Assembly (NCBI GenBank): GCA_016783505.1
Contig: JADHWK010000033.1
Coordinates: 1-28,076, forward strand
Origin: Candidatus Zhuqueibacterota bacterium
GTDB taxonomy: Bacteria > BS750m-G25
DNA length: 28,076 nt
Direction of reading: 5' to 3'
Part shown: piece by piece, positions 9,801 through 23,109 of the stretch
Layout of the letters: every line of letters begins with the position of its first letter
How positions within the stretch are numbered: the first letter of the stretch is position 1
Notes under the pieces: generated by a model
Database searches by the model: none
What the model was told of the DNA's origin: nothing
Seen by the model: the letters and a program-made list of their open reading frames with translations, nothing else
Translations under genes and position numbers: made by a program

Positions 9801-9847
9801 GTCTGGCTGAAAACCGATAAATCTGTCAGGCGCCAGACTAATCGGTT
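9801..9847 (+). other. Possible H-type pseudoknot RNA in the gene-free region
   Basis: Two 7-bp stems are interleaved: GTCTGGC (9801-9807) with GCCAGAC (9832-9838), and AACCGAT (9812-9818) with ATCGGTT (9841-9847). The first can gain TGA/TCA (9808-9810 with 9826-9828) across a GGC bulge. The order a-b-a'-b' defines a pseudoknot, and a terminator-like hairpin follows at 9871. It matches no riboswitch class I recognise. Confidence 0.4.
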
Positions 9848-9870
9848 GAATGTATTCTTTTGTATTTAAT

Positions 9871-9904
9871 ACCCACCCCGAGTATTCGCGGTGGGTTTCT
9901 TTTC
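9871..9904 (+). terminator. Terminator-like hairpin with a T-rich tail
   Basis: ACCCACCCCGA / TCGCGGTGGGT forms an 11-bp stem with one C-C mismatch and loop GTAT, followed by TTTCTTTTCTTT. The CCCACC/GGTGGG arms also resemble the REP palindromes elsewhere in the window. Confidence 0.55.
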
Positions 9905-10015
9905 TTTAGGATTTGAACACCTTGTGCCAACATAATAAGTAAATTATCCAAATCTGGGCTTAGAAGATGATACTTTTACATTAGAAACAATCCTCGAAAG
10001 TTCTTAGGCCGTTTA

Positions 10016-10048
10016 AAAAAAGCTAGCTTGCAATAAACTGGCTTTTTT
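10016..10048 (+). terminator. Rho-independent terminator in the gene-free region
   Basis: AAAAAAGCTAG / CTGGCTTTTTT forms an 11-bp stem with one G-T wobble and an 11-nt loop, ending in T6. No coding gene lies between this and the previous terminator, so a short untranslated transcript could end here. Confidence 0.65.
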
Positions 10049-10058
10049 GTTTAATGGC

Positions 10059-10087
10059 TTGACAATTAAATTTTTTAATGTTAAATT
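10059..10087 (+). promoter_or_regulatory. Candidate promoter upstream of moxR (first)
   Basis: TTGACA at 10059-10064, a 17-base spacer, and TAAATT at 10082-10087 in very AT-rich DNA just after a terminator. Confidence 0.35.
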
Positions 10088-10106
10088 AAAATATAATTTA
10101 TTTACA

Positions 10107-10134
10107 TTGACATTTCCGTTGGAACTTTTAGACT
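10107..10134 (+). promoter_or_regulatory. Candidate promoter upstream of moxR (second)
   Basis: TTGACA at 10107-10112, a 16-base spacer, and TAGACT at 10129-10134. A transcript from here would read through the three-way-junction fold at 10179-10231 before reaching moxR. Confidence 0.35.
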
Positions 10135-10178
10135 AAATAAAAGTTGTAAGATTTAGAAGACATTATTGGCAATCCCGT

Positions 10179-10231
10179 AAAAAGGTCTATCCTGAAGAAT
10201 AGAAACCGTTAAAACGGTTATGAGCCTTTTT
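10179..10231 (+). other. Three-way-junction RNA fold ending in a T run, upstream of moxR
   Basis: An outer stem AAAAGG/CCTTTT (7 bp with the flanking A-T pair, 10179-10185 with 10225-10231) encloses TCTAT/ATAGA (10186-10203) and AACCGTT/AACGGTT (10204-10219), with no unpaired bases between the first three strands and a 5-nt linker before the closing strand. The T run makes it terminator-like, so it could be a leader attenuator. The AACCGTT hairpin also recurs upstream of the transposase at 19860. Confidence 0.4.
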
Positions 10232-10245
10232 TTATTTGTCTTAAG

Positions 10246-10265
10246 CCCCCGACTCAAGTCGGGGG
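10246..10265. repeat. REP-like 20-bp palindrome
   Basis: CCCCCGACTCAAGTCGGGGG has 9-bp arms and a 2-nt loop, the same format as the palindromes flanking the transposase at 19896-20357. It lies 26 bases from the AACCGTT palindrome at 10204-10219, mirroring the pair at 19816-19875 in the opposite orientation. Confidence 0.65.
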
Positions 10266-10316
10266 TTAACTTGGTTTTTCCAGTGGGATTATTATTTCTT
10301 TTTGTAGAGGAGAATC

Positions 10317-11306
10317 ATGAATAAGGACATTCAGGTTATCAATGAGACGATTAAAGAACAGAGTGCCTTTGTGGACAAATTGGTTTCCGAGGTGGGCAAG
10401 GTCATCGTGGGTCAAAAATATATGGTGGAAAGACTTCTGATCGGGCTTCTGTCCAACGGACACATTCTTCTGGAAGGGGTGCCCGGGCTGGCCAAAACCA
10501 TGGCGGTCAAAACCCTATCGGCGGCCATCAAGACCAAATTTCAAAGGCTGCAATTTACCCCGGACCTGCTGCCCGCCGACTTGATCGGAACGTTGGTTTA
10601 TAACCAGCATGACGGAAAATTTACGGTCAAGAAGGGACCCATCTTTGCCAACCTGATCCTGGCCGATGAGATCAACCGCTCCCCGGCCAAGGTGCAGTCG
10701 GCCCTCCTGGAGGCCATGCAGGAGAGGCAGGTAACGATTGGTGAGAATACCTTTAAGCTCGACGAGCCCTTTCTGGTCTTAGCAACCCAGAACCCCATCG
10801 AGCAGGAGGGGACCTATCCCCTCCCGGAGGCCCAGATAGACCGCTTCATGCTGAAACTGAAAATTACCTATCCCAACCAGGGCGAGGAGCTGGAGATTAT
10901 GCGTCGAATGGCGCGGATGGACGGGATAAAAGTGAACGCCGTCGTTTCCCCAAAGGATATCCTCAAGGCCCGGAAGGCGGTGGATAGCATCTATTTGGAT
11001 GAAAAGATCGAAAAGTATATTCTGGATATCGTCTTTGCCACCCGAAATCCGGAGGATTATGGGCTGGAAGATCTGAAGAGCCTGATTGCTTATGGTGCCT
11101 CACCCCGGGCCTCTATTTATCTGGTGATAACATCCAAGGCGCACGCTTTCTTAAAGAAACGGGGGTATGTGATCCCAGAAGACATCCGGGCCATTGGGAT
11201 GGACATCCTCCGCCATCGAATCATCGTCACCTATGAGGCGGAGGCCGAGGAGGTGACTTCGGAAGACATTGTTCAGAAAATATTCGATACGATTGAGGTG
11301 CCTTAG
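10317..11306 (+). CDS. moxR: MoxR-type AAA+ ATPase, first gene of the Bat operon
   Basis: A 329-aa AAA+ ATPase. Walker A is GVPGLAKT (54-61), Walker B is LILADEIN (113-120), and sensor 1 is in LATQNP (155-160); the small C-terminal lid domain follows. MoxR proteins act as chaperone-like ATPases with VWA-domain partners to mature or insert metal centres and complexes, and here the VWA partners (DUF58, BatA, BatB) follow in the same orientation. GAGGAGA shortly before the ATG is a good ribosome-binding site. The long gene-free region upstream supplies candidate promoters and a structured leader. Unusually, moxR does not abut the DUF58 gene: 584 bases with a four-helix-bundle gene separate them. 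Confidence 0.93.
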   Translation: MNKDIQVINETIKEQSAFVDKLVSEVGKVIVGQKYMVERLLIGLLSNGHILLEGVPGLAKTMAVKTLSAAIKTKFQRLQFTPDLLPADLIGTLVYNQHDGKFTVKKGPIFANLILADEINRSPAKVQSALLEAMQERQVTIGENTFKLDEPFLVLATQNPIEQEGTYPLPEAQIDRFMLKLKITYPNQGEELEIMRRMARMDGIKVNAVVSPKDILKARKAVDSIYLDEKIEKYILDIVFATRNPEDYGLEDLKSLIAYGASPRASIYLVITSKAHAFLKKRGYVIPEDIRAIGMDILRHRIIVTYEAEAEEVTSEDIVQKIFDTIEVP

Positions 11307-11358
11307 TCCGCTGTCAGCGATCCGCTGTCGGCAGTCCGCTGTCAGCTATCCGTTTTCA
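11305..11358. repeat. Degenerate TCCGCTGTC repeat array after moxR
   Basis: Quasi-repeats of about ten bases, including three copies of TCCGCTGTC and then TATCCG, begin at the moxR stop codon. The array at 11820-11881 carries the same words in reverse complement, so the two flank the four-helix-bundle gene as inverted arrays. Confidence 0.6.
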
Positions 11359-11428
11359 GATGTAATCATTTAACTTTTTGGGGAAGAACCCGTAGGTTAT
11401 AAAAAACCTATCCAAGAAAGGATAAGCT

Positions 11429-11779
11429 ATGAGAGACTATCGTAAGTTGAAGATTTGGAATGAGTCCATGGATTATGTTGTAGCCGTCTATAAATTCTCC
11501 AAGATTTTACCCAAAAGTGAGGAATACAATCTGATTTCACAGATAAAAAGGGCGGCAACATCCATTCCTTTGAACATTTCAGAAGGTGCAGGGTGTGGAA
11601 CAAACAAGGAATTTCAACAGTTTTTATGGTATGCCTATCGTTCCACAAATGAAGTATTGACATGCCTGGAATTGTCATTACGATTAAATTTCTGTCAGCG
11701 CAAACAGGTTGAAGCCTTGAGTGATTGGGGTGACAAAATCTGTGGCATGATTTATTCTTTTGTCAAAAAATTAGATTGA
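11429..11779 (+). CDS. Four-helix-bundle protein (23S rRNA intervening-sequence protein family)
   Basis: A 116-aa protein matching the family first described from intervening sequences of 23S rRNA genes. Hallmarks are MRDYRKLKIWNESMDYV at the start, QIKRAATSIPLNISEGAG in the middle, then KEFQQFLWYAYRSTNEV and a final amphipathic helix. The family forms four-helix bundles related to the diversity-generating-retroelement protein Avd; its cellular role is largely unknown. AAGG at 11418-11421 is the ribosome-binding site and lies partly inside a small hairpin (TATCC/GGATA, 11409-11424). Base use is more AT-rich than moxR and the DUF58 gene. It separates two genes that are normally adjacent and is flanked by inverted repeat arrays, which suggests insertion. 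No reverse transcriptase or variable-region gene is nearby. Confidence 0.8.
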   Translation: MRDYRKLKIWNESMDYVVAVYKFSKILPKSEEYNLISQIKRAATSIPLNISEGAGCGTNKEFQQFLWYAYRSTNEVLTCLELSLRLNFCQRKQVEALSDWGDKICGMIYSFVKKLD

Positions 11780-11819
11780 CGTAAAGTTTTTAGAGGAAAT
11801 CCCTTGTTGTGAAAGGTAT

Positions 11820-11881
11820 GATTGCTGACTGCGAATGACGGATATCTGATTGCGGATAGCGGATAACGGATTGCGGGTGGC
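11820..11881. repeat. Degenerate GCGGATARC repeat array before the DUF58 gene
   Basis: Repeated words GATTGCGGATAGCGGATAAC and GACGGATATCTG extend up to the DUF58 start. It is the inverted counterpart of 11305-11358 and shares CTGATTGCGGA (11846-11856) with the element inside hypF (27894-27904). Confidence 0.6.
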
Positions 11882-11890
11882 GGGAATATC

Positions 11891-12769
11891 ATGATCCCGA
11901 AGGAAATCTTAAAGAAAGTCCGATTGGTCGAGATAAAGACACGGGGGTTAGTAAACGAGGTCTTTTCCGGGGAATACCATTCGGTGTTCAAGGGGAGGGG
12001 GATCGAATTTGCAGAGGTGAGGGAATATCAGGTCGGGGACGACATCCGCACCATTGATTGGAACGTTACCGCCCGGACGGGACATCCCCATATAAAGATC
12101 TTTGATGAGGAAAGGGAGCTGGTGGTTATGTTCCTGGTGGACCTCTCCGGTTCGGGGGAGTTTGGAACCCACCGCCAGTTTAAAAGGGAGATCGGCGCTG
12201 AGGTCTGCGCCCTGCTCGCCTTTTCAGCCGCCAAAAACAACGACAAGGTGGGTCTGATCGCCTTTAGCGATCGCATCGAAAAGTTCGTCCCCCCCAAGAA
12301 GGGACGGGGCCACGTCTTCCGGATCATCAGGGAACTCTTGTATTTCACCCCAGAAAGCCGACGAACCCATATCGGCCAGGCACTAGAATACCTGAATCGG
12401 GTGATCAGGAAAAGATGTATTGTCTTTTTGGTCTCCGATTTCTGGGATGAGGGGTACGAAAGACCCCTGCAGATTCTGGCCAGAAAGCACGACCTTATCG
12501 CCATTACCCTCTATGACCCCCGGGAGGCGGAACTGCCCCGGGCCGGCTTTGTGGAGCTGAAAGATGCCGAGAGCGACGAGGTCTTCGTCGTTGATACCAG
12601 CAATGAGCGATTAAGACAGCGATACCGGGAGGAATTTATTAGAAAAAAACTGGAACGGGAAAGGTTGTTTAAGTCATTGAAAGTGGATTTAATTACCTTA
12701 CGCACCGATCAATCATACGTTCAGCCAATTGTTCAGTTTTTTAAGATGAGGGAACGGCGCTTCCGATGA
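11891..12769 (+). CDS. DUF58 / VWA-like protein of the Bat operon
   Basis: A 292-aa protein. The DUF58 core GRGIEFAEVREYQVGDDIR (36-54) leads into TIDWNVTARTGHPHIKIF. A VWA-like fold begins VVMFLVDLSGSGEFG, with an intact MIDAS-type DxSxS at residues 84-88. DUF58 proteins are regular partners of MoxR ATPases and are thought to recruit them to the VWA membrane proteins. No membrane segment is obvious, so it is probably cytoplasmic. The ATG follows the repeat array immediately and has no strong ribosome-binding site. The stop (TGA) lies at 12767-12769. In intact versions of this operon the next gene would follow closely; here 379 bases of repeats intervene. Confidence 0.9.
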   Translation: MIPKEILKKVRLVEIKTRGLVNEVFSGEYHSVFKGRGIEFAEVREYQVGDDIRTIDWNVTARTGHPHIKIFDEERELVVMFLVDLSGSGEFGTHRQFKREIGAEVCALLAFSAAKNNDKVGLIAFSDRIEKFVPPKKGRGHVFRIIRELLYFTPESRRTHIGQALEYLNRVIRKRCIVFLVSDFWDEGYERPLQILARKHDLIAITLYDPREAELPRAGFVELKDAESDEVFVVDTSNERLRQRYREEFIRKKLERERLFKSLKVDLITLRTDQSYVQPIVQFFKMRERRFR

Positions 12770-13105
12770 ACTCAGAGGACGCAGAAACGCAGAATCCCTC
12801 AGAGGACATAGAAGAACTCAGCCCCGTCCCAAGATCGTTTTCCCCTGGGAGCGTAGCCTCCTACCCTAGCCGGGCACGGCGGACCGGGCAGGCAAGATTC
12901 TTGGGCCGAAAGGATCTTGGCAACTGGAATAATGGTCTACAGCCCGTAGGGAATGATGGATAAATGGAAGGATAGAAAAATTGAAGGATGGACGAATGCC
13001 CCCCTGGCCGGGCAGGCAAGGCCCGTATGGGGAGGAATGGGTACACCCAACCTTCCAGCATTCCAACATTCCCCTACAGGTCTTCGGACAATCTTCCATC
13101 ATTCC
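12770..13105. repeat. Composite dispersed-repeat block between the DUF58 gene and batX
   Basis: This 379-base gap is made of repeat pieces. Around 12775-12800 is CAGAGGACGCAGAAACGCAG. The 56-base copy is at 12842-12897. GGAATGATGGA (12950-12960) is the exact inverse of 13095-13105. CCGGGCAGGCAAG occurs at 12884-12896 and again at 13008-13020. ATTCCCCTACAGGTC at 13068-13082 is an exact inverse of 18845-18859. Short open frames through the block are read from repeat sequence and are not believable. Confidence 0.65.
12842..12897 (+). repeat. 56-bp exact repeat, copy 1
   Basis: It begins CCCCTGGGAGCGTAGCC and ends GACCGGGCAGGCAAGA. It is identical by eye to 18791-18846, in the same orientation. 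Confidence 0.85.
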
Positions 13106-13148
13106 AGAAATGACAGATTTGGAAAATATTTTCACTAAGTTTTAGATC

Positions 13149-14120
13149 ATGGGGATCAGGAATATCCTTTTGACAGGGTTGTTATTGTGGGTATCGCTGT
13201 CATTTGCCGATGATGTTCGGATAAAGGCCGAGCTAGAACCGGATACCGCGTTGGTGGGGGACTGGATTAGTTTCTCCCTTTTCATCGAACACGACCAAGG
13301 GATAAAGGTTGACCTGCCCCAGCTTCAGGGGCGGGTAGGGGATCTGGAGGTGATTAAGCCGGGGGAGTGGAAATCTAAAAAGTCAAAAGGGAGGATCATT
13401 GACCAAATGGCGACTACCTGTGCGGTATATGATACGGGCCATTTTGTCATTCCGGAAATACCTATCTTCTACCAAAAGGTCGGGGATACCACCCGGTACC
13501 AGATTAACAGTCAACCCCTTGGGGTTTTTATTGCCAGTGTGCTGGACTCCTCCGTCACCGATATTCTGGACATTAAGGGGCCGGTGGCCTTTCCCCGACC
13601 CTTGCGGGAGAAGCTGTTCTGGGCCATGATTTTTATGATCCCCCTGGCTCTGGGAGCGTTGGCTTACATCTATGTTAAAAGAAAGAAAGGGGGACCGAAA
13701 AAAATCCTGGCGGCGTCCCCCCCTTTAGTTCCCCCCCATGAGTGGGCTTATCAGGAATTGGAGAAATTAAAAGGGTCTTCCCTTCTCCTGCAGGGAAAGT
13801 TCAAAGCCTATTATTCCAGGGCTTCCGAAATCGTCTGCACCTATCTTGAAAGGCGTTATCCCATTCGGGCAGTGGAGATGACGTCAACCGAGCTTATTGA
13901 ATGGTTTTCACAATCCAAATTGTCCGACGGTATTTTAGAGATGGTGAGGAGCTTTCTGGAAAAGTGCGATCTGGTGAAATTTGCCAAGCATCGGCCCCTA
14001 TCCCAGGAAAACGAAGAGGTTCTCCTTCAGGCCTACCAGATTGTGGATAGAACCAAACTCGGGGTTGAAAAGTGCTGGGGAAATGAAACTCCCAAAAGAA
14101 AAAAACAATCTGAGCTTTAG
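13149..14120 (+). CDS. BatX: signal-peptide, single-TM protein of the Bat operon (BatD-like layout)
   Basis: A 323-aa protein. The signal peptide (MGIRNILLTGLLLWVSLSFA, about 1-20) leads to a beta-rich extracytoplasmic domain (about 21-150), one membrane helix (FWAMIFMIPLALGALAYIYV, about 157-177) and a cytoplasmic helical domain containing AYYSRASEIVCTYLERRYPI and STELIEWFSQSKLSD. This is the layout of the BatD C-terminal half, and such a gene commonly sits between DUF58 and BatA in these operons. It probably bridges periplasmic sensing and the cytoplasmic MoxR/VWA machinery (inferred). No clear ribosome-binding site precedes the ATG. I name it by position and layout, not by a recognised motif. 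Confidence 0.65.
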   Translation: MGIRNILLTGLLLWVSLSFADDVRIKAELEPDTALVGDWISFSLFIEHDQGIKVDLPQLQGRVGDLEVIKPGEWKSKKSKGRIIDQMATTCAVYDTGHFVIPEIPIFYQKVGDTTRYQINSQPLGVFIASVLDSSVTDILDIKGPVAFPRPLREKLFWAMIFMIPLALGALAYIYVKRKKGGPKKILAASPPLVPPHEWAYQELEKLKGSSLLLQGKFKAYYSRASEIVCTYLERRYPIRAVEMTSTELIEWFSQSKLSDGILEMVRSFLEKCDLVKFAKHRPLSQENEEVLLQAYQIVDRTKLGVEKCWGNETPKRKKQSEL

Positions 14121-14237
14121 AGGAGAGAAGCACAGATAGTAAAAAATATTCCGATAGTCCAACATTGCTCATATCAAGACATATTAACTAAATAATTAAT
14201 AGTAAATAACTTTTAATAATTTTTGAGGTATCAGAAA

Positions 14238-15341
14238 ATGGAAAATGTGGTGTATCTGTTGGGTGCCGGATTTTCTGCTCCTTTAGGGTTGCCCGTTATG
14301 GATAATTTCCTAGAAAAATCAAAAGATATGTATTTTGAAACACCTGATAAATTTAAACATTTCTTAAAGGTTTTTGATACGATAAAAGAAATGTCTATTA
14401 GTAAGAATTATTTTTCGACAGATTTGTTTAATATTGAAGAAATATTATCAATTCTTGAAATGAAAACTAGTCTTGGGGAAAATGGTTCAAGTCGCTTTTT
14501 TATTAAATATATCATTGATGTTATTAATCATTTTACTCCATCGATTGTACCACATAAAAATCCTTTAATTGGGAATTGGAATGAGCATATTTTTGGGGAT
14601 AAACCAATAGCAAACTACTATGGATATTTTGTATCCTCTTTATTAAATGCTCAAACTACTCGGAGAATAGTAGAAGATAATTATGGTAACAAATCCCCCA
14701 TTTATAAGTTATCAAAAGATAGCAATCACCAAGCAAAATATTCTGTTATTACTTTAAATTATGATTTAGTTATTGAAAATTATTGCAATTTTTTAAATCA
14801 AAATTTAGAATTTTGCAATGACATCAAATTTATAAAACCATACAATAATTTTAATGTCGAATCTTCTAAATTCCCAGTTATTGCAAAATTACATGGTAGT
14901 ATTGATACAGGGAAAATTATCCCCCCTACTTGGAACAAATTATTAAATAAGCGCGAGATAAAGGATGCTTGGAAAGCTGCACATAAGCTTTTAATTAAAG
15001 CAAACCATATTAGAATCATTGGTTATTCTCTTCCAACCACAGATTCTTATGTAAGATATCTTTTTAAATCTGCCATTATCTATTCACTTCATTTAAAAAA
15101 TATTGACGTGATTTGTTTGGATCACAATGGTGAAATAAAAAAACGATATGATGAATTCATCCAATTTAAAAATTATCGTTTTATTCCTGAAGACACCCTT
15201 AATTATCTAAAACAGAATTTTGAGCTAAACGAATCGTTTGAAAGACCCGACTCAAAAACGATGAAAGGATCTTTTAACAGATTGGAACAAGCTCATAATA
15301 GTTTTATGACCAGTTATATTTTATTACATCAATCTAATTAA
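14238..15341 (+). CDS. Stand-alone SIR2-like NADase/sirtuin-fold protein
   Basis: A 367-aa protein with the SIR2 Rossmann motifs in order: GAGFSAPLGLP (9-19) for NAD binding; TLNYD (172-176), equivalent to the TQNID motif; KLHGS (217-221) with the catalytic His at 219; and IIGYSLPTTD (260-269). The zinc-binding Cys pairs of true deacetylase sirtuins are not seen, so it belongs with SIR2-like proteins found in antiphage systems, several of which cleave NAD+. No partner domain is fused and no partner gene is adjacent. The frame is open from TTG 14223, but GAGG at 14225-14228 fits ATG 14238. The gene is far more AT-rich than the Bat genes around it and lies between batX and batA, both strong signs of transfer. 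Confidence 0.78.
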   Translation: MENVVYLLGAGFSAPLGLPVMDNFLEKSKDMYFETPDKFKHFLKVFDTIKEMSISKNYFSTDLFNIEEILSILEMKTSLGENGSSRFFIKYIIDVINHFTPSIVPHKNPLIGNWNEHIFGDKPIANYYGYFVSSLLNAQTTRRIVEDNYGNKSPIYKLSKDSNHQAKYSVITLNYDLVIENYCNFLNQNLEFCNDIKFIKPYNNFNVESSKFPVIAKLHGSIDTGKIIPPTWNKLLNKREIKDAWKAAHKLLIKANHIRIIGYSLPTTDSYVRYLFKSAIIYSLHLKNIDVICLDHNGEIKKRYDEFIQFKNYRFIPEDTLNYLKQNFELNESFERPDSKTMKGSFNRLEQAHNSFMTSYILLHQSN

Positions 15342-15490
15342 CACTTTGGAAATTATGAAAAAATAATAACCTGCACATGCACCGAACGCAACGTAGCACT
15401 ATTACTTAACAATTTTATTTCTCGTTTAACGATCACGCTGTTGATTGCCAAACGCTAATTAAACTGAATAACCATAAAAATCTATCAAAC

Positions 15491-16468
15491 ATGTTTGCCC
15501 ATCCCCAATTTTTTCTGCTGCTGTTGCTTGTTCCATTGATGGTCTTCTGGTACGTTAAGAAGCAGAAGAGAGCCCAGATTCAGTTTTCCACCATCAGCCT
15601 GCTGAAAGAGGTGGACAAAACCTCGTTGAAGAAATTCCGGCACATGCCGTTCATTTTCCGGTGTCTGGCGGTTGTTTTGATGGTCGTGGCCCTGGCCCGG
15701 CCCCAATCTACCAGTGAGACTAAGGAGGTGTTGACAGAAGGGATTGACATCATGCTGGCACTGGACATCTCCAGCTCCATGCTGGCCGAGGATTTTCAAC
15801 CGAAGAACCGGATCCAAGCGGCTAAGGAAGTAGCAGCAGAATTTATTGACGGCCGTATGAGCGATCGCATCGGGTTGGTGGCCTTTTCCGGGATGAGCTT
15901 TACCCAGTGCCCGTTAACCTTAGACTACGGGCTGTTGAAAAAACTCCTGAGCGAGATCGGGGTGGGCATGATCGAGGACGGCACCGCCATCGGGATGGCC
16001 ATCGCCAACGGGGTGAACCGGCTGCGGGATTTAAAGGCCAAGAGCAAGGTAATGATTCTGCTCACCGACGGCCAGAATAATCGGGGGGAACTGGATCCGG
16101 TCACCGCCGCTCAGACCGCTGCTGCCCTGGGCATTAAGGTCTATACCATTGGGGTGGGCAGTCGGGGGCAGGCGCCCTATCCGGTGGATACTCCATTTGG
16201 AAAACGCTATCAGATGGTCCCGGTGGACGTTGATGAGGACATGCTTAAGGAGGTAGCCAGGCTTACCGATGGCCGATACTTTCGGGCCACGAACGAAGAT
16301 AAACTAAGGGAGATTTATGGGGAGATTGATGAGCTGGAGAAGACTAAAATTAAGGTGAAGGAATATAGAAGATATGAAGAGCTTTTTTACGGCTATCTAT
16401 GGCTGGCACTGGCCTTTTTAACCACAGGGGTCGTTCTGGGGAACACCCGGTTCAGGAAGATTCCTTGA
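15491..16468 (+). CDS. batA: BatA: membrane-anchored VWA protein
   Basis: A 325-aa protein. Two N-terminal membrane helices (FFLLLLLVPLMVFWYV, 7-22; FIFRCLAVVLMVVALA, about 54-69) precede a VWA domain with an intact MIDAS: DISSS (92-96), Thr 165 in EDGTAIGMA and Asp 193 in LLTDGQNN. A last helix lies near the C-terminus (YGYLWLALAFLTTGVVLG). BatA and BatB are paralogous VWA proteins named for Bacteroides aerotolerance and thought to act with MoxR at the inner membrane. The VWA domain would face the cytoplasm. No Shine-Dalgarno is visible (the leader is A-rich), and the 149 bases after the SIR2 gene contain no clear promoter. Confidence 0.9.
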   Translation: MFAHPQFFLLLLLVPLMVFWYVKKQKRAQIQFSTISLLKEVDKTSLKKFRHMPFIFRCLAVVLMVVALARPQSTSETKEVLTEGIDIMLALDISSSMLAEDFQPKNRIQAAKEVAAEFIDGRMSDRIGLVAFSGMSFTQCPLTLDYGLLKKLLSEIGVGMIEDGTAIGMAIANGVNRLRDLKAKSKVMILLTDGQNNRGELDPVTAAQTAAALGIKVYTIGVGSRGQAPYPVDTPFGKRYQMVPVDVDEDMLKEVARLTDGRYFRATNEDKLREIYGEIDELEKTKIKVKEYRRYEELFYGYLWLALAFLTTGVVLGNTRFRKIP

Positions 16469-16495
16469 GTTAAATTCTTTAGTTTTTTCGGCTCT

Positions 16496-16648
16496 ATGTC
16501 GTTAAGTGTGGTATATTATGAGATATTTGAGGATATTTACCATGCAAAATCAAGAGAGAAACAAATTAAAGGCGGCTTAAGACAGAAAAAGATCAATCTG
16601 ATTAACAGTATGAACGGGAAATGGAAAGATATATACGACGAATTATGA
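16496..16648 (+). pseudogene. GIY-YIG nuclease remnant (C-terminal half)
   Basis: A 50-residue frame reads VVYYEIFEDIYHAKSREK, then QIKGGLRQKKINLINSM and ends KWKDIYDEL. This is the characteristic second half of small GIY-YIG endonucleases (YbaA/UPF0213-like). The N-terminal half with the GIY and YIG motifs and the catalytic Arg is absent, so it should be inactive even though it has an ATG. It lies in the batA-batB gap. Confidence 0.7.
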
Positions 16649-16667
16649 TCTATGTTTTAAACTAAAA

Positions 16668-16765
16668 AAAGATTGCTTCGGCCAAAAAACGGGCCTCGCA
16701 AAGACAAGCAAAAGAAACTGTCATTGCGAGGAATCCCGAGTATTCGGGATGACGAAGTAATCCTT
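16668..16765. repeat. 98-bp palindromic dispersed element, possibly the vapBC terminator
   Basis: Outer arms AAAGATTGCTTCG (16668-16680) and CGAAGTAATCCTT (16753-16765) pair at 11 of 13 positions. Inner arms CCTCGCAAAGACA (16694-16706) and TGTCATTGCGAGG (16719-16731) pair at 12 of 13. Each side carries its own small hairpin (GGCC/GGCC; CCCGA-GTAT-TCGGG). It resembles the ATTGCGAGG...GACGAAGCAATC repeats common in environmental genomes. Read on the minus strand the stem runs into seven T residues, so it could end the vapBC transcript. Confidence 0.6.
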
Positions 16766-16880
16766 AAAAGATAGTAGATGAACAAAAAAACATTGTGATG
16801 TATCATGAACGGAACTTTTTTCTTCTGCTTCATCCTTTTTGACAATTACCCATAGAAAACGACATAGACTCCTTCGTTCT

Positions 16881-17306
16881 TTATCGAGGGAATATCTCAA
16901 ACCCTAAAACGGAAAAATGATGATCAAAAGTGAAGGCTTTCCTGATCCTTAAATTTTGCATGAGGGCGAAGGAAGTTGCATCAGTGAACGAAAAATTGAT
17001 AGCCGAATATTGGCAAAAAATCTTCCAGGCAGAATCCCTCAATGCGGAATCAATAGCGTGTATTAGAATTACCGGGCTGGAAAAGAGGCTATCCCACAAT
17101 TTGATGGATGCCTCCAGTCCGACAGTATATCTCAGATGGGTGATGCTTTCGTCTATGATATAGTCGCTAGTATGATAGGTGACGGGTCTACCTTTGTAGG
17201 TTTTTAAAAACTGTGAAGCCCGCTGATGGTATTGATCATCCCTATCATAAAGTGCGATCCAGGCGGAGGAATCGACAAAGAAGCCTTCTTTTGCAAAGAC
17301 TTTCAT
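16881..17306 (-). CDS. vapC: VapC-type PIN-domain ribonuclease toxin
   Basis: A 141-aa PIN-domain protein. The acidic site is complete: Asp 12 in FFVDSSAWIALYD, Glu 53 in IIDESITHLRY, Asp 109 in SFTDATSFALM and Asp 128 in FTFDHHF. VapC toxins are Mg2+-dependent RNases that cut tRNA or rRNA and are neutralised by the partner antitoxin. Its start overlaps the stop of the upstream RHH antitoxin gene by four bases (17303-17306). The pair runs against the Bat operon between batA and batB. Confidence 0.88.
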   Translation of the reverse strand: MKVFAKEGFFVDSSAWIALYDRDDQYHQRASQFLKTYKGRPVTYHTSDYIIDESITHLRYTVGLEASIKLWDSLFSSPVILIHAIDSALRDSAWKIFCQYSAINFSFTDATSFALMQNLRIRKAFTFDHHFSVLGFEIFPR

Positions 17307-17572
17307 TTCTTTTTGGGAGCACCGTAGAGATAATGATCATGATTGATGGAACCGTCGGTGATCCCGGAGTTTGCCATTCCCACAATATTCCAGATGGGAT
17401 CGTCTTCAGCCAGGATGTGTTGCCCCTCTTTAGCGGAAATACCCAGGTATTCAGAAATGGCTTCACGGACGAGCTCAGCCATCTTTTTGTTAGTTTCCTT
17501 TGCTTTTTCTCTGAGCAGTCGGTGCTGAAGATGACCGAGGTAAATTTGGGTTCTTATAGGATACTCAGCCAT
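17303..17572 (-). CDS. vapB: Ribbon-helix-helix antitoxin of the VapC pair
   Basis: An 89-aa protein. The N-terminal half is a short beta strand and two helices (YPIRTQIYLGHLQHRLLREK, then NKKMAELVREAISEYLG), the CopG/MetJ ribbon-helix-helix DNA-binding fold. The C-terminal half is the toxin-binding tail (AEDDPIWNIVGM). Antitoxins of this type bind their own promoter as dimers. A 16-bp palindrome sits 14 bases upstream of the start, and a strong -35/-10 pair lies behind it. AGGGG a few bases before the ATG is the ribosome-binding site. The vapB name reflects role, not the AbrB-type fold of classical VapB. Confidence 0.8.
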   Translation of the reverse strand: MAEYPIRTQIYLGHLQHRLLREKAKETNKKMAELVREAISEYLGISAKEGQHILAEDDPIWNIVGMANSGITDGSINHDHYLYGAPKKK

Positions 17573-17585
17573 TTTACCCCTTTTT

Positions 17586-17601
17586 TAATGTATATACATT
17601 A
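17586..17601. promoter_or_regulatory. Palindromic operator of the toxin-antitoxin pair
   Basis: TAATGTATATACATTA is a perfect 16-bp palindrome between the -10 box and the antitoxin start, a typical site for antitoxin autorepression. Confidence 0.6.
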
Positions 17602-17602
17602 T

Positions 17603-17631
17603 AATATAATAAATAAATTTAATTTTGTCAA
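17603..17631 (-). promoter_or_regulatory. Promoter of the toxin-antitoxin pair
   Basis: On the minus strand: TTGACA (17626-17631), a 17-base spacer, then TATATT (17603-17608). It begins only 16 bases before the batB start codon on the other strand. Confidence 0.7.
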
Positions 17632-17646
17632 GTAAAAATTCGTTCT

Positions 17647-18678
17647 ATGATCCGTTTTGCCCATATTGAATATCTCCATCTTTTATGGGGAATCCCGATA
17701 TTATTCTTTTTCTTTCTGTATGTATTTAAAAGGAAGAAAAAGGATGTGAATGTCTTTGGAAACCCGGAATTAGTGGCCAAACTGGCCCCCAACGCCAGCC
17801 GGAGGCGATTCGTATTGAAGGCAATGCTAATATTAGCCGGACTGTTTTTTATCATCATCGCCCTGGCCAATCCCCAGGTGGGGACCAAACTGGAGGAGGT
17901 GAAGCGGGAAGGGATTGATGTTGTAGCGGCCTTAGATGTTTCCCTGTCCATGATGGCAGAGGACATCGCTCCTAACCGGCTGATGAAGGCCAGGCACCAA
18001 ATTGCTCACTTAATCAGCCTACTGGAAGGGGATCGCATTGGACTTATCGCCTTTGCCGGGGCCGGGTTTGTCCAGAGCCCATTGACACTGGATTATGGGG
18101 CGGCCCTCATGTTTCTGGACGCTATGGATGTTCAGACCGTTCCCCGCAAGGGAACAGCCATCGCCGAGGCCATCGGGGCGGCGGCTAAGTCCTTTATTCA
18201 GAGGGAAAAAAAACACAAGGTGCTGGTGCTGTTTACCGATGGGGAGGATCACGGGGAGGATGTTTTGAAGGCCGCCGAAAGGGCGGGGGAGGAAGGAATC
18301 GTCATCTATACCCTTGGGGTGGGCTCACCCCAAGGGGTTCCCATCCCCCTGTTTGGCAAAGCCGGAAATCGGGTGGGATTCAAAAAGGACAAAAACGGTG
18401 AAGTGGTGCTGACAAGGTTAAATGAGTGGGGCCTTCAGCAAATTGCTCTCCAAACGGGGGGAAAATATTTTCGTGCCAGCCCAGGCGAAGGTGAGATCGA
18501 AGAGATCTATCGGGAGATTGGCGGTATGGGAAAGAAAGAACTGGGGGCCAAGCAGTATACCCAATTTGAGGACCGTTTCCAGATTTTTCTGGTCATAGGA
18601 TTAGCACTTCTCGTCACGGAATTCTTTATCAGCGAGGGGAGACGGACGAAAATAAATAAACCATCTGCAATTATTTAG
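17647..18678 (+). CDS. batB: BatB: membrane-anchored VWA protein
   Basis: A 343-aa paralogue of BatA. Membrane helices lie at about 11-27 (LLWGIPILFFFFLYVF) and 56-74 (VLKAMLILAGLFFIIIALA). The VWA domain has an intact MIDAS: DVSLS (97-101), Thr 170 in RKGTAIAEA and Asp 198 in LFTDGEDH. A C-terminal helix (IFLVIGLALLVTEFF) follows. Compared with BatA it has an extra GNRVGFKKDKNGEV segment. It is expected to work with BatA and MoxR at the inner membrane. No Shine-Dalgarno is seen before the ATG, and the vapBC promoter on the other strand occupies the upstream DNA, so batB transcription must read through from batA or start inside that promoter region. Confidence 0.9.
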   Translation: MIRFAHIEYLHLLWGIPILFFFFLYVFKRKKKDVNVFGNPELVAKLAPNASRRRFVLKAMLILAGLFFIIIALANPQVGTKLEEVKREGIDVVAALDVSLSMMAEDIAPNRLMKARHQIAHLISLLEGDRIGLIAFAGAGFVQSPLTLDYGAALMFLDAMDVQTVPRKGTAIAEAIGAAAKSFIQREKKHKVLVLFTDGEDHGEDVLKAAERAGEEGIVIYTLGVGSPQGVPIPLFGKAGNRVGFKKDKNGEVVLTRLNEWGLQQIALQTGGKYFRASPGEGEIEEIYREIGGMGKKELGAKQYTQFEDRFQIFLVIGLALLVTEFFISEGRRTKINKPSAII

Positions 18679-18733
18679 CCTTATCGAGTTGATAAAGAAG
18701 TGAAATGTGCCAGCAGGGAAGAGCAGGAGTGCA

Positions 18734-18773
18734 GGGGAGCAGGGGAGCAGAGGGGCAGAGGGGAGGGGGAGGG
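18734..18773 (+). other. G-run tract with G-quadruplex potential
   Basis: Six runs of three to five G (18734-18737, 18742-18745, 18752-18755, 18760-18763, 18765-18769, 18771-18773) are separated by loops of 1-6 bases such as AGCA and CAGA. It lies on the coding strand 56 bases after batB. This fits the canonical four-G-run pattern several times over. Confidence 0.55.
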
Positions 18774-18790
18774 AGTAATGGAATGTTGTC

Positions 18791-18859
18791 CCCCTGGGAG
18801 CGTAGCCTCCTACCCTAGCCGGGCACGGCGGACCGGGCAGGCAAGACCTGTAGGGGAAT
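18791..18859 (+). repeat. 56-bp exact repeat, copy 2, with a 15-bp end module
   Basis: 18791-18846 is identical to 12842-12897. The overlapping end module GACCTGTAGGGGAAT (18845-18859) occurs inverted at 13068-13082. Confidence 0.85.
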
Positions 18860-18897
18860 TTTGGTAACAGTTCACCACTAAATCCTATTTCTGAATC

Positions 18898-19006
18898 CTT
18901 TTGCCTTTCTCAAAGTCCCCCTTTTAAATAAGGGAGGAATCGAAATAGAGCCAAATCTAAAGATTATCATATTCGTTTTTCTTTTTGACTTGTCACGAAG
19001 TGACCA
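18898..19006. other. Repeat-like DNA and small hairpins before batC
   Basis: TCCCCCTT TTAAAT AAGGGAGGA near 18917-18940 is a weak palindrome of a common intergenic type, and GTCAC-GAA-GTGAC is a 5-bp hairpin near 18994-19006. The 357-base gap between batB and batC therefore holds the G-run tract, the 56-mer and these small palindromes. No gene is visible. Confidence 0.35.
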
Positions 19007-19035
19007 CTCACCCTGAAAGTAGGGAAGGTTATTAA

Positions 19036-19779
19036 ATGGTTATAAATCATTACCATAAGTTTCTTTTCCTGTTAATTACAGGGTCCCTATTAATTCTATC
19101 GTTCCCTTCAGAGTTATGTGGAGAATCGGGCACTGCTAAGGTTAAAAAGGGGAACAAATTCTATAATGAAGGTAAATACGATCGGGCCCAGGTGAAGTAT
19201 ATGGAAGCCCTACAAGAACATCCGGAGGCCCCGGAGATTCATTTCAATCTGGGGGATAACTACTATAAAAAGGAAAATTTTGAAAAATCCCAACAGGAAT
19301 TTCAAAGTTCCCTTTCGACTCAAAAGGATGAATTAAAGACCCGTTCGTATTATAACCTGGGGAACGTCTTATTCAAAGGGCGGAAGATCCCCGAGAGCAT
19401 CGAAGCCTATAAGAATGCCCTGAGGATAAGACCGGATTTCAGGGAGGCGAAGACTAATCTGGAGCTGGCCAAACTGATGCTTAAGCAACAGCAGCAGCCA
19501 CAGGAGCAAAGGGGTCAGGAAGAGCAGTCTAAAGAGCAGAAGCAGGATCAGGAACAACAGCAGGAAGGGAAACAGGAGCAGCAACCGCCAGGACCCAAAG
19601 AAAAGGAATTTGATGAGCGGCAGGAACCGACCCAGCAACGTCGGCTAAAGCCCAAAGAAGGGATGACAGAGGAGGATGCCAAGAAAATTCTGGATGCGTT
19701 GAAGCATGACGAAAAGGAGCTTCTGAGACAGATACGTCGGATGAAGATTAAGGAGGGGATGGTGGATAAGGACTGGTGA
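19036..19779 (+). CDS. batC: BatC: TPR protein with a Q/E-rich tail
   Basis: A 247-aa protein. An N-terminal hydrophobic signal (FLFLLITGSLLILSF, about 9-23) is followed by three TPR units: GNKFYNEGKYDRAQVKYMEAL, then HFNLGDNYYKKENFEKSQQEF, then YYNLGNVLFKGRKIPESIEAY. Residues about 150-200 are a low-complexity Q/E/K stretch, and the C-terminus is a short charged helix (MTEEDAKKILDALKHDEKELL). This matches BatC, a periplasmic TPR scaffold in the Bat complex. GGGAAGG about eight bases before the ATG is a good ribosome-binding site. Batwise the next gene should be batD, but a transposase is inserted first. Confidence 0.82.
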   Translation: MVINHYHKFLFLLITGSLLILSFPSELCGESGTAKVKKGNKFYNEGKYDRAQVKYMEALQEHPEAPEIHFNLGDNYYKKENFEKSQQEFQSSLSTQKDELKTRSYYNLGNVLFKGRKIPESIEAYKNALRIRPDFREAKTNLELAKLMLKQQQQPQEQRGQEEQSKEQKQDQEQQQEGKQEQQPPGPKEKEFDERQEPTQQRRLKPKEGMTEEDAKKILDALKHDEKELLRQIRRMKIKEGMVDKDW

Positions 19780-19815
19780 TGGGTTTTTATTCCAATTCAA
19801 AAATTCTTTTATTAG

Positions 19816-19875
19816 CCCACGAATTTATTCGTGGGTATTAAAAGCATATTAAAACATTTAACCGTTTTAACGGTT
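19816..19875. repeat. Bipartite REP unit upstream of the transposase
   Basis: A 20-bp palindrome (19816-19835), 24 bases, then AACCGTT-TT-AACGGTT (19860-19875). With one T-T mismatch the second stem extends to CATT/AATG. The unit is repeated in the opposite orientation at 10204-10265. Confidence 0.65.
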
Positions 19876-19895
19876 TAATGTGGGAGGGTTTTTTG

Positions 19896-20357
19896 ATGTC
19901 CCATTCTTTAACCAAATTGTGGGTTCATGCCATCTGGGGCACGAAGGATCGAATACCATTGCTTAAAGACCCATTTAGATCCAAGATCATACATCATATT
20001 CAAGACAAGTTAGAGGAACTTGATTGTGGTGTTCGTATAATTAACGGGACGGCGGATCATTTTCATGCACTATTTCTATTATGTAATGATAAATCCCTTG
20101 CTGAAGTGATGAAAATGATTAAAGGCGAATCTTCACATTGGATCAATCAGCAAGACATTATCAGTCGTAAATTTGCTTGGCAGGTAGGTTATGGTGGTTT
20201 TTCAGTAAGCGAATCTATGGTAAAGCAAGTTGAGGATTATATTCGTAAGCAAGAAGAGCATCATCGGAAGATGACATTTCAAGAAGAATATGATCGTTTT
20301 CTTAAACAATATGGGTTATCAGAAAAACCGATGAATCGGTTAAATGAATTCTTTTGA
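19896..20357 (+). CDS. REP-associated tyrosine transposase (Y1, IS200-like)
   Basis: A protein of 153 aa from ATG 19896. The HUH motif is H55-F56-H57 in NGTADHFHALFLL, and the catalytic Tyr is Y115 in QVEDYIRKQEEHH. The N-terminus SLTKLWVHAIWGTKDR is typical of the family. Such enzymes nick single-stranded hairpin DNA at palindromes and can mobilise REP sequences. GGGAGGG at 19882-19888 supports this start over the ATG at 19878. All key residues are present, so it may be active. The matching palindromes sit directly at both ends. Confidence 0.88.
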   Translation: MSHSLTKLWVHAIWGTKDRIPLLKDPFRSKIIHHIQDKLEELDCGVRIINGTADHFHALFLLCNDKSLAEVMKMIKGESSHWINQQDIISRKFAWQVGYGGFSVSESMVKQVEDYIRKQEEHHRKMTFQEEYDRFLKQYGLSEKPMNRLNEFF

Positions 20358-20367
20358 GCTATTTTTA

Positions 20368-20387
20368 CCCACGATTAAAATCGTGGG
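20368..20387. repeat. REP-like 20-bp palindrome downstream of the transposase
   Basis: CCCACGATT-AA-AATCGTGGG: the same 9-2-9 format as 19816-19835 and 10246-10265. Confidence 0.7.
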
Positions 20388-20449
20388 TTACTTATGGCTT
20401 TCAGCACCTTGCAACAATGTCATAAATATATTTTTGGAATATTAGTTTG

Positions 20450-22330
20450 ATGATAAAAAAATATGTGCTGATCTTTCTTCTTTTGTCTATTCCATTAAGC
20501 CTTGGGGCTCAGGAGCTGCAATTTACCGCCCGGGTCAATCCCCAGGCCCTGGCGGAAGACCAGATCCTGGAGGTGATCTTTGAACTGTCCGGAAGTGGAA
20601 TTTCGTCGCTGCCGCGGCCCAGGCTTCCTGACTTCCCTGACTTTATCATCATTTCTGGCCCCAATCAGTCAACCAGTTATGAATTCATCAACGGGAGCAT
20701 GTCCCTTTCCAAGACCTACGGCTATACCCTGATGCCCAAACGGGCCGGTTCGTTCAAAATAGGGTCGGCGGAAGTTCGGTATAAAGGCAAGGATTATCGC
20801 ACCGATCCTGTTCTCATTTTAGTATCTAAAGGCGGGATGGCCGCCCGGAAGGTCCGTCCTTCGGATCGGGAGAAGAAAAAAATTCAACCCGGGCTCGATA
20901 TTTTTCTCAGGGCGGCGTTGGATAAGGTGAAAGCCTATCAAAATGAGATGATAGTTTTGACATATAAGATTTATACCGGCGTGAGAATATCCAGTTATGG
21001 TGTTCAGGAATTGCCCAGGACCACCGGTTTTTGGGTTGAGGAGTTTGAATTGCCCAAGCAGCCCCCCTTGAAGGATGAGGTGGTGAACGGTCAGCACTAC
21101 CGAGCCGCGGTCATCAAGAAACTAGCCCTTTTCCCCACCAGTCCCGGCAAATTAACCATTGACCCTATGGTAGTGGAGTGCGAAGTTCAGGCGCAGAGAA
21201 GACGCCGGGCCTACGATCCCTTCGACCTTGACTCTTTCTTCGATGATTCTTTTTTATTCGGCCGCACCGTCAAAAAGGTCCTTAAATCCAATCCCCTCAC
21301 CCTGGAAGTAATCCCATTGCCCCCAGAAAATCAGCCGCCGGGATTTGGCGGGACGGTGGGGGAGTTTAATCTATCGGTCAGGGTGGATAAAGAAAAAGTC
21401 AAAACCAATGAGGCGATCACCTTGACCGTCACCTTAGCCGGCAGGGGGAATATCAAGACCCTTCCCGAGCCCGTCCTTTCGCTCTCGCCCGATTTTGAAC
21501 GGTATGAGCCCAAAATTTCCGAGGTGATCAACCGCAAAGGGTCCCAGATTTCCGGGAAAAAGACCTTTGAATATGTTTTAATCCCCCGGCACCCGGGGGA
21601 ACAGGTCATTCAACCGATTTCCTTTTCCTTCTTCAACCCAGCAAAAAAACGGTATGTTACCCAGCAAAGCGGCCGGTTCATCATCCAGGTTGAAAAGGGC
21701 CCCGAAGCCCCGGGTCCGTTAGTAGCCGGTCTGACCAAGGAGGAGGTTAAACTGGTGGGACAGGACATCCGGTTCATCAAGAAGCGGGTCAAGGGTTTTA
21801 AAAAACAGGGAAGTTTTCCCTATCAGGGATTTGTCTTCACCTTTTTAATCATTTTTCCCCTGTTCGTCTTGGGGGGGACAGTATTTTACCGGAGTAGGCA
21901 GGACCGGCTGGGACAAAACGCAGCCTTAGCCCGTTTTGAAAGGGCTTATCCTACCGTTCAAAAGGCGCTGAAGCGGGTTGCCAGGTTGCAGTCTGCGGAC
22001 CGGGCTAAAGAATTCTATGGGGACCTGTCCGGTGCCCTGATGGGTTATTTTGGGGATAAATTGAATAAATCAGCGGTCGGATTTTCGGTCGAAGAGCTGG
22101 AAAAAATCCTGACTGAGAAGGGGATTGATGATAATCTGGTCCAACGGACGAAGAAGATTTTGACCCACTGCGACTACGCCCGCTTTGCCCCCGGTGAAGT
22201 TCAGCTTGAGCAACTTGAATCAGTTCTAAAAAAAAGCCAGGGAATCATTAAATCTTTAGAAAAAACCTTGGTATTTAGCTTATTAACTAATAATCTTATA
22301 ATCTTGGTGTCTTCGTGTCTTTGTGGCTGA
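20450..22330 (+). CDS. batD: BatD: oxygen-tolerance family membrane protein
   Basis: A protein of about 626 aa. A signal peptide (KKYVLIFLLLSIPLSLGAQ) leads to a long beta-sandwich region with repeated motifs (FTARVNPQALAEDQILEV near the start; FNLSVRVDKEKVKTNEAITL near 305), the usual BatD extracytoplasmic domain. One membrane helix follows at about 459-480 (FVFTFLIIFPLFVLGGTVFY), then a cytoplasmic helical domain (ALKRVARLQSADRAKEFYGD). The TTG at 20447 is in frame, but ATG 20450 is the better start. The final stretch after SLEKT (LVFSLLTNNLIILVSSCLCG) looks unlike the rest of the domain and is partly encoded by a repeat-like segment that also contains the batE start. It probably scaffolds the periplasmic side of the Bat complex. 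Confidence 0.85.
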   Translation: MIKKYVLIFLLLSIPLSLGAQELQFTARVNPQALAEDQILEVIFELSGSGISSLPRPRLPDFPDFIIISGPNQSTSYEFINGSMSLSKTYGYTLMPKRAGSFKIGSAEVRYKGKDYRTDPVLILVSKGGMAARKVRPSDREKKKIQPGLDIFLRAALDKVKAYQNEMIVLTYKIYTGVRISSYGVQELPRTTGFWVEEFELPKQPPLKDEVVNGQHYRAAVIKKLALFPTSPGKLTIDPMVVECEVQAQRRRRAYDPFDLDSFFDDSFLFGRTVKKVLKSNPLTLEVIPLPPENQPPGFGGTVGEFNLSVRVDKEKVKTNEAITLTVTLAGRGNIKTLPEPVLSLSPDFERYEPKISEVINRKGSQISGKKTFEYVLIPRHPGEQVIQPISFSFFNPAKKRYVTQQSGRFIIQVEKGPEAPGPLVAGLTKEEVKLVGQDIRFIKKRVKGFKKQGSFPYQGFVFTFLIIFPLFVLGGTVFYRSRQDRLGQNAALARFERAYPTVQKALKRVARLQSADRAKEFYGDLSGALMGYFGDKLNKSAVGFSVEELEKILTEKGIDDNLVQRTKKILTHCDYARFAPGEVQLEQLESVLKKSQGIIKSLEKTLVFSLLTNNLIILVSSCLCG

Positions 22331-22339
22331 ACCGTTACA
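22303..22339 (+). repeat. Repeat-like segment at the batD/batE junction
   Basis: CTTGGTGTCTTCGTGTCTTT followed by GTGGCTGAACC resembles CTTTGTGTCTTTGTGG-type intergenic repeats that I recall from environmental genomes. Only one copy is in the window, so this rests on recall plus its out-of-place translation. Confidence 0.3.
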
Positions 22340-23109
22340 GTTTTTTTTACGTATCAACGATTATTCTTTTGGGACCGATCTGTTGGATGGGAGGACATCG
22401 TGCCTTTGGGGATCCATTCGCTAGCCTGTTCGAAGAGGGAAACCACCTCTATGAAGCGGGGGAGTATGAGGAAGCCATTTCAAAATATGAATTGATATTA
22501 GAGGGAGGCTATGAAAACGGGACGCTGTACTATAATCTGGGTAATGCCCATTATAAGCTGAATCACATCGCACCGGCCATCTTTTACTATGAGAAGGCAG
22601 CCCGGCTGATGCCCAGGGAGCCCGACGTGAAGATTAATCTGAAGTTGGCTAATTTGAGGGTCATTGACAAAATTACCCCGAGGCCGCGGCTGGTGATCTG
22701 GGATTGGTTCGACTCCTTTCGGGGGCTGTTTTCCTTGGGTCTGCTGACCGGGCTGGTACTGGGTTTATATCTAATTCTGATAATTGGGCTCATAGTCTAC
22801 GTCTGGTTTCGGAAGGTAAGGTTAAGAAGGATGATCCTCTATGGAATGGGACCGACCGCTTTTTTGCTTCTACTCTTTTTGGGCCTGTTCCTCCTTCGGA
22901 TTCATGAAATTAAAAAGCTACGGGAGGGGATTATTTTTTCGCCAATGGTTGAGGTGCGTAGCGCCCCGGGTGAGGGAGAAACAGAACTTTTCCTCCTCCA
23001 TGAGGGGGTAAAGGCCAAGATTAGAAATAGGGTGGGGGATTGGGTTGAGATTGAACTGGCGGACGGCAAGGTGGGATGGGTGGGCTGTGAATCCCTGCGG
23101 GAGATTTAG
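22315..23109 (+). CDS. batE: BatE: TPR protein with two membrane helices and an SH3b-like end
   Basis: A 264-aa protein. A hydrophobic N-terminus (FFYVSTIILLGPICWM) is followed by TPR units (EEGNHLYEAGEYEEAISKYEL, then LYYNLGNAHYKLNHIAPAIF). Two membrane helices lie at about 138-164 and 176-194. The last 60 residues form a bacterial SH3-like domain (MVEVRSAPGEGETELFLLHEG, then GDWVEIELADGKVGWV). This is the standard BatE layout and closes the operon. The GTG start at 22315 overlaps batD by 16 bases; a TTG at 22321 is an alternative, and both fall in repeat-like sequence. The first 10 or so residues are therefore uncertain. Confidence 0.83.
   Translation: MSLWLNRYSFFYVSTIILLGPICWMGGHRAFGDPFASLFEEGNHLYEAGEYEEAISKYELILEGGYENGTLYYNLGNAHYKLNHIAPAIFYYEKAARLMPREPDVKINLKLANLRVIDKITPRPRLVIWDWFDSFRGLFSLGLLTGLVLGLYLILIIGLIVYVWFRKVRLRRMILYGMGPTAFLLLLFLGLFLLRIHEIKKLREGIIFSPMVEVRSAPGEGETELFLLHEGVKAKIRNRVGDWVEIELADGKVGWVGCESLREI

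Follow-up and report, generated by a model that had tools for sequence, protein, structure and literature searches.

The window, that is, the whole stretch of 28,076 nucleotides that was analysed, is one contig of a 2.5-Mb metagenome-assembled genome of Candidatus Zhuqueibacterota, which consists of 89 contigs and is 60% complete. It carries a MoxR-Bat operon, known as the aerotolerance operon. The eight genes moxR, DUF58, batX, batA, batB, batC, batD and batE follow one another in the conserved order, all on the plus strand and, according to ORF and Pfam work, all with open frames. In gene content and order the locus resembles other operons of this kind, whereas its junctions differ from theirs in length, six of the seven being 357-1370 bp long. 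The features are as follows.

10317-11306, plus strand: moxR, an AAA_3 ATPase (Pfam, 6e-66; at most 75% identity in the nearest genomes)
11307-11883, plus strand: IVP element, a stem-loop with an IVP gene in its loop (RNA fold)
11307-11357, no strand: left arm of the IVP element, degenerate repeats of about 7 nt (CCGCTGTCAGC...)
11429-11779, plus strand: IVP / S23 / four-helix-bundle gene, 116 aa (PF05635, 8.2e-32)
11820-11883, no strand: right arm of the IVP element, complementary to the left arm (46 nt at 72%)
11891-12769, plus strand: DUF58 (vWA) gene (Pfam, 6e-83)
12770-13148, no strand: dispersed-repeat mosaic, DUF58/batX junction (blast against the genome sample)
12842-12897: first copy of a 56-mer, DUF58/batX junction
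13149-14120, plus strand: batX, a predicted membrane protein without a Pfam domain, related to the gene at the same position in relatives
14223-15341, plus strand: SIR2-like gene, 28% GC, batX/batA junction (SIR2_2, 7.6e-08; Aga_SIR2, 5e-13 in PADLOC)
15491-16468, plus strand: batA (VWA and BatA domains)
16496-16648, plus strand: C-terminal remnant of a GIY-YIG nuclease, batA/batB junction (PF01541 positions 48-78, E 0.016)
16671-16763, no strand: palindromic element of the CATTGCGAGG...GACGAAGTAATC type, batA/batB junction (junction fold)
16881-17306, minus strand: PIN-domain (VapC-like) gene, batA/batB junction (PF01850, 6.4e-12)
17303-17572, minus strand: RHH (VapB/CopG-like) gene, batA/batB junction (PF01402, 8.8e-04, a weak match just under the cut-off)
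17647-18678, plus strand: batB (VWA and BatA domains)
18679-19035, no strand: batB/batC junction with a G-rich tract of 7/8-nt repeats, a 56-mer (18791-18846) and a repeat (18860-18975)
19036-19779, plus strand: batC (TPR; profile match)
19812-20449, plus strand: RAYT element, batC/batD junction, its right end abutting the batD start (Y1_Tnp, 1e-21)
19878-20357, plus strand: Y1 transposase gene inside the RAYT element, with a REP-like palindrome on each side
20447-22330, plus strand: batD (BatD, 1.8e-41)
22297-22336, no strand: dispersed repeat, batD/batE seam (copies elsewhere in the genome, 97.5% and 92.7% identical)
22315-23109, plus strand: batE (TPR and SH3 domain matches)

The preliminary description had proposed a canonical operon with intact coding regions and something extra at every junction. 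Gene order, coordinates and open frames were borne out, and so were the four-helix-bundle gene, the SIR2-like gene, the GIY-YIG remnant, the antisense PIN/RHH pair, the RAYT element and the 56-mers. Sizeable additions are present at six of the seven junctions, but the batD/batE seam holds only a repeat of about 40 bp. The composite repeats that had been listed as an insert of their own do flank the four-helix-bundle gene; however, they are the two arms of one element and not a separate feature.

The moxR/DUF58 insert is a single stem-loop element with inverted, degenerate 7-nt arms and a gene in its loop. It follows the moxR stop codon without a gap, and 7 nt separate its end from the DUF58 start. 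The local alignment of its arms scores 127 against a shuffle mean of 58, and its RNA fold (-180.5 kcal/mol, z -4.7) joins the arms by 68 pairs, with none of 100 shuffles being as stable. The other IVP copies in this genome have arms of different repeat units, so that each copy carries its own unit and the terminal repeats shared between copies that mark a DNA transposon or MITE were not found. An S23/IVP ORF and a terminal inverted-repeat stem, which characterize the intervening sequences (IVSs) of 23S rRNA, are both present, and the flanks are moxR and DUF58 rather than 23S rRNA. In the IVSs of Coxiella and Leptospira, the S23p gene lies in the loop of a terminal stem that is cut by RNase III, and in Coxiella tandem heptamers (GACAGAT) precede the ORF; the origin and role of the rRNA-located S23 copies have been unclear since their discovery (PMC4990558). 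The two kinds of element are alike in size, approximately 0.4-0.6 kb, and in the position of the S23/IVP gene within the loop (PMC4990558). In contrast to the rRNA copies, the element in the window lies between protein genes with no rRNA near, its degenerate 7-mer arms are specific to the copy, and its stem is a predicted one.

We surveyed the flanks of 53 IVP genes, taken from this genome and from others across many families. The inverted flank score had a median of 124 compared with 60 for mismatched pairs. The 95th percentile of the mismatched pairs was exceeded in the inverted orientation at 36 of the 53 genes and in the direct orientation at 12, a preference for inverted matching with p = 4e-6, and the arms of 35 of the 53 beat all of 100 dinucleotide-type shuffles. 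Of 200 other genes in this genome, only 4 passed the arm test, the RAYT being among them, as did 4.7% of windows from the same loci. Self-identity in the IVP flanks has maxima at two lags only, 7 (0.375) and 14 (0.357), over a background of 0.27. G-U mismatches in the arms outnumber A-C mismatches 156:112 (p = 0.0085), a modest bias in counts pooled over sites that hints at selection on the sense RNA. No rRNA was found near the IVP genes at the 20 loci scanned. The 17 genes of the 53 that lack detectable arms may represent decay, 23S copies or domestication. To our knowledge, no function is known for S23/four-helix-bundle genes, and such genes occurred in 50 of the 145 genomes sampled; a search for IVP genes in phages gave zero matches. 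All eight IVPs examined on cyanobacterial plasmids have inverted heptamer arms, the units being GGGTGTA, GGGAACA, TTAGCTG, AAAAGCT, GGGAAAA and GGTGACA, and two of the eight pairs are related to each other. No fixed terminus of the IVP elements was found. An apparent orientation bias, with a co-directional upstream gene at 30 of 34 IVP genes, was dropped as near background: co-directional neighbours are the rule in bacteria, and 91% of neighbours are co-directional in this genome.

Gain (or loss) of IVP elements at operon junctions is seen directly, because related plasmids hold filled, empty and gene-less versions of the same junction. Between the TraM-like and hypothetical genes of Nostoc plasmids, an IVP element is present in pNe_5 and pC052_D, and the junction is empty, at about 50 bp, in p057_K, p057_A and the UHCC 0302 plasmid; pNsp_c of Nostoc ATCC 53789 has the left boundary of the filled allele and its GGGAACA arms without the IVP gene. 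At the cas6/cas4 junction of type I-D CRISPR loci, Anabaena sp. 90 and Pseudanabaena galeata carry an IVP element, and the junction of Pseudanabaena ABRG5-3 is empty, at 36 bp. The Dolichospermum plasmid pUHCC0315a, which is 98.7% identical to the Anabaena sp. 90 plasmid, has an unrelated terminal-repeat element at this place (about 240 bp, GTAGGTTGGGTT...AACCCAACCTAC). One junction can therefore receive different elements, as the bat operon does. Reading by eye revealed no clear target-site duplication at the filled and empty IVP junctions. A Calothrix NIES-22 plasmid pair (H6/H7) was tried as a case of two insertions and set aside, since both copies sit within a longer block of shared genes and the transposition is not a clean one.

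A rival reading of the element is that heptamer hairpins might be independent repeats, beside which IVP genes merely survive or into which they insert. Heptamer tracts without an IVP gene do occur in this genome, pNsp_c has arms without the gene, and in Xanthomonas paired inverted GGGAATC heptamers are described with no mention of such a gene (PMC4692102). However, most IVP genes are flanked on both sides by inverted arms with a unit that matches within each copy, whereas a plain tandem array serving as a target would leave direct flanks. The left boundary of pNsp_c is that of the filled allele, which makes internal loss of the gene an equally likely origin, and the empty Nostoc alleles lack the arms as well as the gene. 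We consider independent hairpins unlikely, although this reading retains appreciable weight. The heptanucleotide repeats of cyanobacteria, Xanthomonas and Beggiatoaceae are similar to the arms in that they are 7-nt units, intergenic and sometimes paired in inverted orientation, but the portions of these reports that we consulted are silent on any IVP gene lying between the two (PMC4692102; PMC4679880). A repeat-binding protein has been proposed as a possible mobile element for such repeats (PMC4679880). Among open-access papers, we found none that connects heptamer arms with the IVP genes they flank outside rRNA.

The batC/batD insert is of an established kind, a RAYT-type element with a non-autonomous derivative (PMC3116915). 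Its Y1/HUH transposase gene is flanked by the REP-like palindromes GCCCACGAATTTATTCGTGGG and ACCCACGATTAAAATCGTGGGT. An internally deleted copy in the same genome (L143:7627-7854) keeps both ends and has lost most of the gene, and its similarity extends up to the batD start. The element shares with RAYT/REPIN systems the Y1 transposase, the flanking REP-like palindromes, the intergenic position and a deleted copy in the same genome (PMC3116915). In the 26% of the genome sampled, the candidate members of a REPIN population are this one deletion derivative and a few palindrome matches; strong Y1 copies number three in the genome. Upstream of moxR, at 9840-10270, lie palindromes similar to those of the RAYT element, and the sequence at 10203-10220 recurs exactly, in inverted orientation, at 19859-19876.

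Dispersed repeats occupy further junctions. The 56-mer is present in two exact copies in the operon, at DUF58/batX and batB/batC, and its region matches 23 places in the genome. All 18 blast matches of the DUF58/batX mosaic elsewhere in the genome sample are intergenic, as are all 26 of the batB/batC junction. At the batD/batE seam, the batD stop codon lies within the dispersed repeat, which also extends over the batE start. The GIY-YIG remnant has at most 62% identity to annotated GIY-YIG nucleases. No partner defence gene was recognised beside the SIR2-like gene, which stands at the locus as a SIR2-like domain alone; PADLOC matched only this gene and a Fic-like gene in the window, and an Rfam scan of the window gave zero matches.

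The filling of junctions is not special to the bat operon and is found genome-wide. Repeats and gaps were assessed in stretches amounting to up to 0.79 Mb. In a 0.66-Mb sample, about a quarter of the genome (26%), the median co-directional gap is 152 bp and about 80% of the sequence is coding, both values being approximate because they come from a crude home-made caller. The repeats of the DUF58/batX, batB/batC, RAYT and batD/batE junctions recur in the sample, and all matches but one are intergenic. In rnfCDGEAB, whose unscanned members were named from order and sequence, the gaps are 324, 368, 335, 164 and 284 bp, and dispersed repeats occur in all five junctions. Another IVP gene splits sdhA from sdhB, and yet another lies downstream of ftsZ. 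With E. coli operons as controls, only dcw, sdh and nuo fragments were obtained, and ribosomal L16 was absent from the incomplete bin. IVP genes elsewhere in the genome, read by eye, are interrupted by small terminal-repeat elements, which indicates that insertions into dispensable genes do survive.

Several other features of the genome were recorded. On contigs C38 and C1, terminal-repeat elements of about 100 bp (CCCCGTTAGATAA... and CCCTGTTAAATAA...) are found within IVP genes and also elsewhere. On C66 (L204:16001-17062), a DUF6883 gene is situated between nuoL and the next nuo-like gene, with a copy of the same 90-bp repeat on each side; the two copies are 81% identical. A second, divergent moxR-DUF58 pair is found at C5:67002-69110. 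Within the window, the hypF frame contains, at 27895-27960, in-frame inverted CGGAATG/CGGAATC heptamers around a palindrome, which from the sequence appears to be a tolerated insertion. A TPR protein at 25549-27117 consists of a 141-bp unit repeated almost identically about 9.6 times; upstream of it lie a Fic gene and the remnant of an integrase.

The comparison with relatives drew on 74 loci related to BatA in named genomes and on another 20 taken from whole genomes; ORFs were called, and the eight genes were assigned by phmmer. The source genome is the only one of its phylum among the genomes available, with the nearest MoxR at approximately 75% identity, and the absence of the window's inserts elsewhere accordingly holds at phylum distance only. 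The relatives' junction gaps have medians from -12 to +37 bp. Six or more junctions could be measured in 38 loci. Junctions of at least 300 bp are lacking in 27 of these, whereas eight have one, two have two and one has four; the window has six of seven. No gap of at least 300 bp occurred at batX/batA in 62 relatives or at batC/batD in 59, and the moxR-DUF58 distance is 18-219 nt in six of the closest relatives by BatA/MoxR. Because the junctions of relatives are compact, none of the 38 loci having more than four of this length, the spacing in the window is derived. The preliminary description had suggested a comparison with the closest genomes and had named close relatives that all share the same inserts at the same places as contrary evidence; at the distance covered here, no such relatives appeared. 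Another relative with loose junctions (G054), which together with one other genome comes nearest in MoxR, has bat junctions of 585, 363, 274 and 183 bp, with its own RAYT (a Y1 transposase between moxR and DUF58) and palindromes that differ from those of the window. As judged from these sequences, the two operons represent parallel invasion rather than shared insertions. The DUF58/batX junction was not simply tight in the ancestor: KSB1-type genomes and UBA2214, which are the nearest relatives, have an additional gene at this place, about 1 kb long, that encodes a PPIC-type protein in the only copy scanned; the window lineage probably lost this gene and gained repeats. In a closed relative, G057 (L110:3491-9819), the gap between DUF58 and batX contains the PPIC-type protein, an ABC transporter and two more large genes.

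The inserts might instead be functional additions, in which the defence-like, toxin-antitoxin and IVP genes were kept since co-expression with Bat is useful or addictive. The SIR2-like protein resembles defence SIR2 proteins, the IVP and SIR2 genes are co-directional with the operon, and IVP genes have been noted in cas loci, for which a CRISPR-associated function was proposed (PMC3936711). As in the window, those IVP genes lie between operon genes, often beside cas4 or cas6 (PMC3936711); however, the arms and the empty junctions described here point to insertion rather than to a CRISPR-associated role. The cas6/cas4 IVP is missing from related plasmids, one of which has the unrelated terminal-repeat element in its place. 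Furthermore, no relative has an insert of 300 bp or more at batX/batA or batC/batD, and most relatives have short gaps at the remaining junctions. The PIN/RHH genes run antisense to the operon, and the rest of the insert DNA is mostly dispersed repeat. We therefore regard functional addition as improbable for the inserts as a set, although SIR2 and PIN/RHH may be selected cargo instead of neutral survivors. An assembly or binning chimera, with which a 60% complete MAG in 89 contigs and its sharply alternating GC would be compatible, is very improbable: the genes form one uninterrupted operon in the canonical order, repeats from its gaps, including the 56-mer, recur on many contigs of the same bin, and the GC dips coincide with single foreign genes. 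Ancestral spacing, with old gaps common to the lineage, could appeal to the loose junctions of G054 but is contradicted by the different content of those junctions and by the compactness of the other relatives.

We consider the best account, with a probability of roughly 0.75, to be a compact ancestral bat operon in a genome tolerant of heavy intergenic colonisation, in which between-gene insertions persisted, the moxR/DUF58 insert being a copy of a widespread IVS-like element. Successive insertions would have brought in several classes of element: the IVP element, short dispersed repeats, the RAYT together with its REP palindromes, and genes of foreign origin (SIR2, PIN/RHH and the GIY-YIG remnant). 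Because the operon is under selection, only the insertions between genes would have persisted. The preliminary description had inferred strong selection on the operon together with preferential insertion at gene ends. The inserts are indeed derived and the genes spared, but the pattern is not specific to this operon, and preference is not required, because insertion anywhere followed by the purging of gene-breaking insertions predicts the same picture. Survivorship of between-gene insertions suffices, and some target preference may also exist.

Slippage and hairpin-templated correction are known mechanisms for quasi-palindromes. In the IVP elements, slippage may make the 7-mers, and hairpin-templated repair may keep the arms of each copy complementary. 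The element in the window would act as an RNA stem-loop in the read-through transcript; by analogy with 23S rRNA, its stem would probably be cut by RNase III, and the cut would free the IVP message and part the moxR message from that of DUF58. Homology of PF05635 to Avd, a protein of diversity-generating retroelements, has been reported (PMC10053308), so that an RNA route for mobility is a lead, though only that. More broadly, we tentatively propose, at somewhat less than even odds, that IVP genes are the coding part of a widespread, unrecognised class of mobile elements that spread through the protein operons of many phyla. Such elements would be self-contained RNA stem-loops with copy-specific 7-nt arms and would include the 23S IVS as a special case; their arms could possibly derive from an RNA- or hairpin-templated process related to Avd and diversity-generating retroelements. 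New in this analysis is the view of the IVP element as a mobile unit of the IVS kind that lies outside rRNA.

Once S23 genes are recognised as parts of IVS-shaped elements at protein-operon junctions, whose filled, empty and gene-less states are at hand, mobility, excision and arm formation become directly testable, and a simpler reading is offered for the IVP genes considered CRISPR-associated. The invaded bat operon is itself accounted for by a genome-wide condition.
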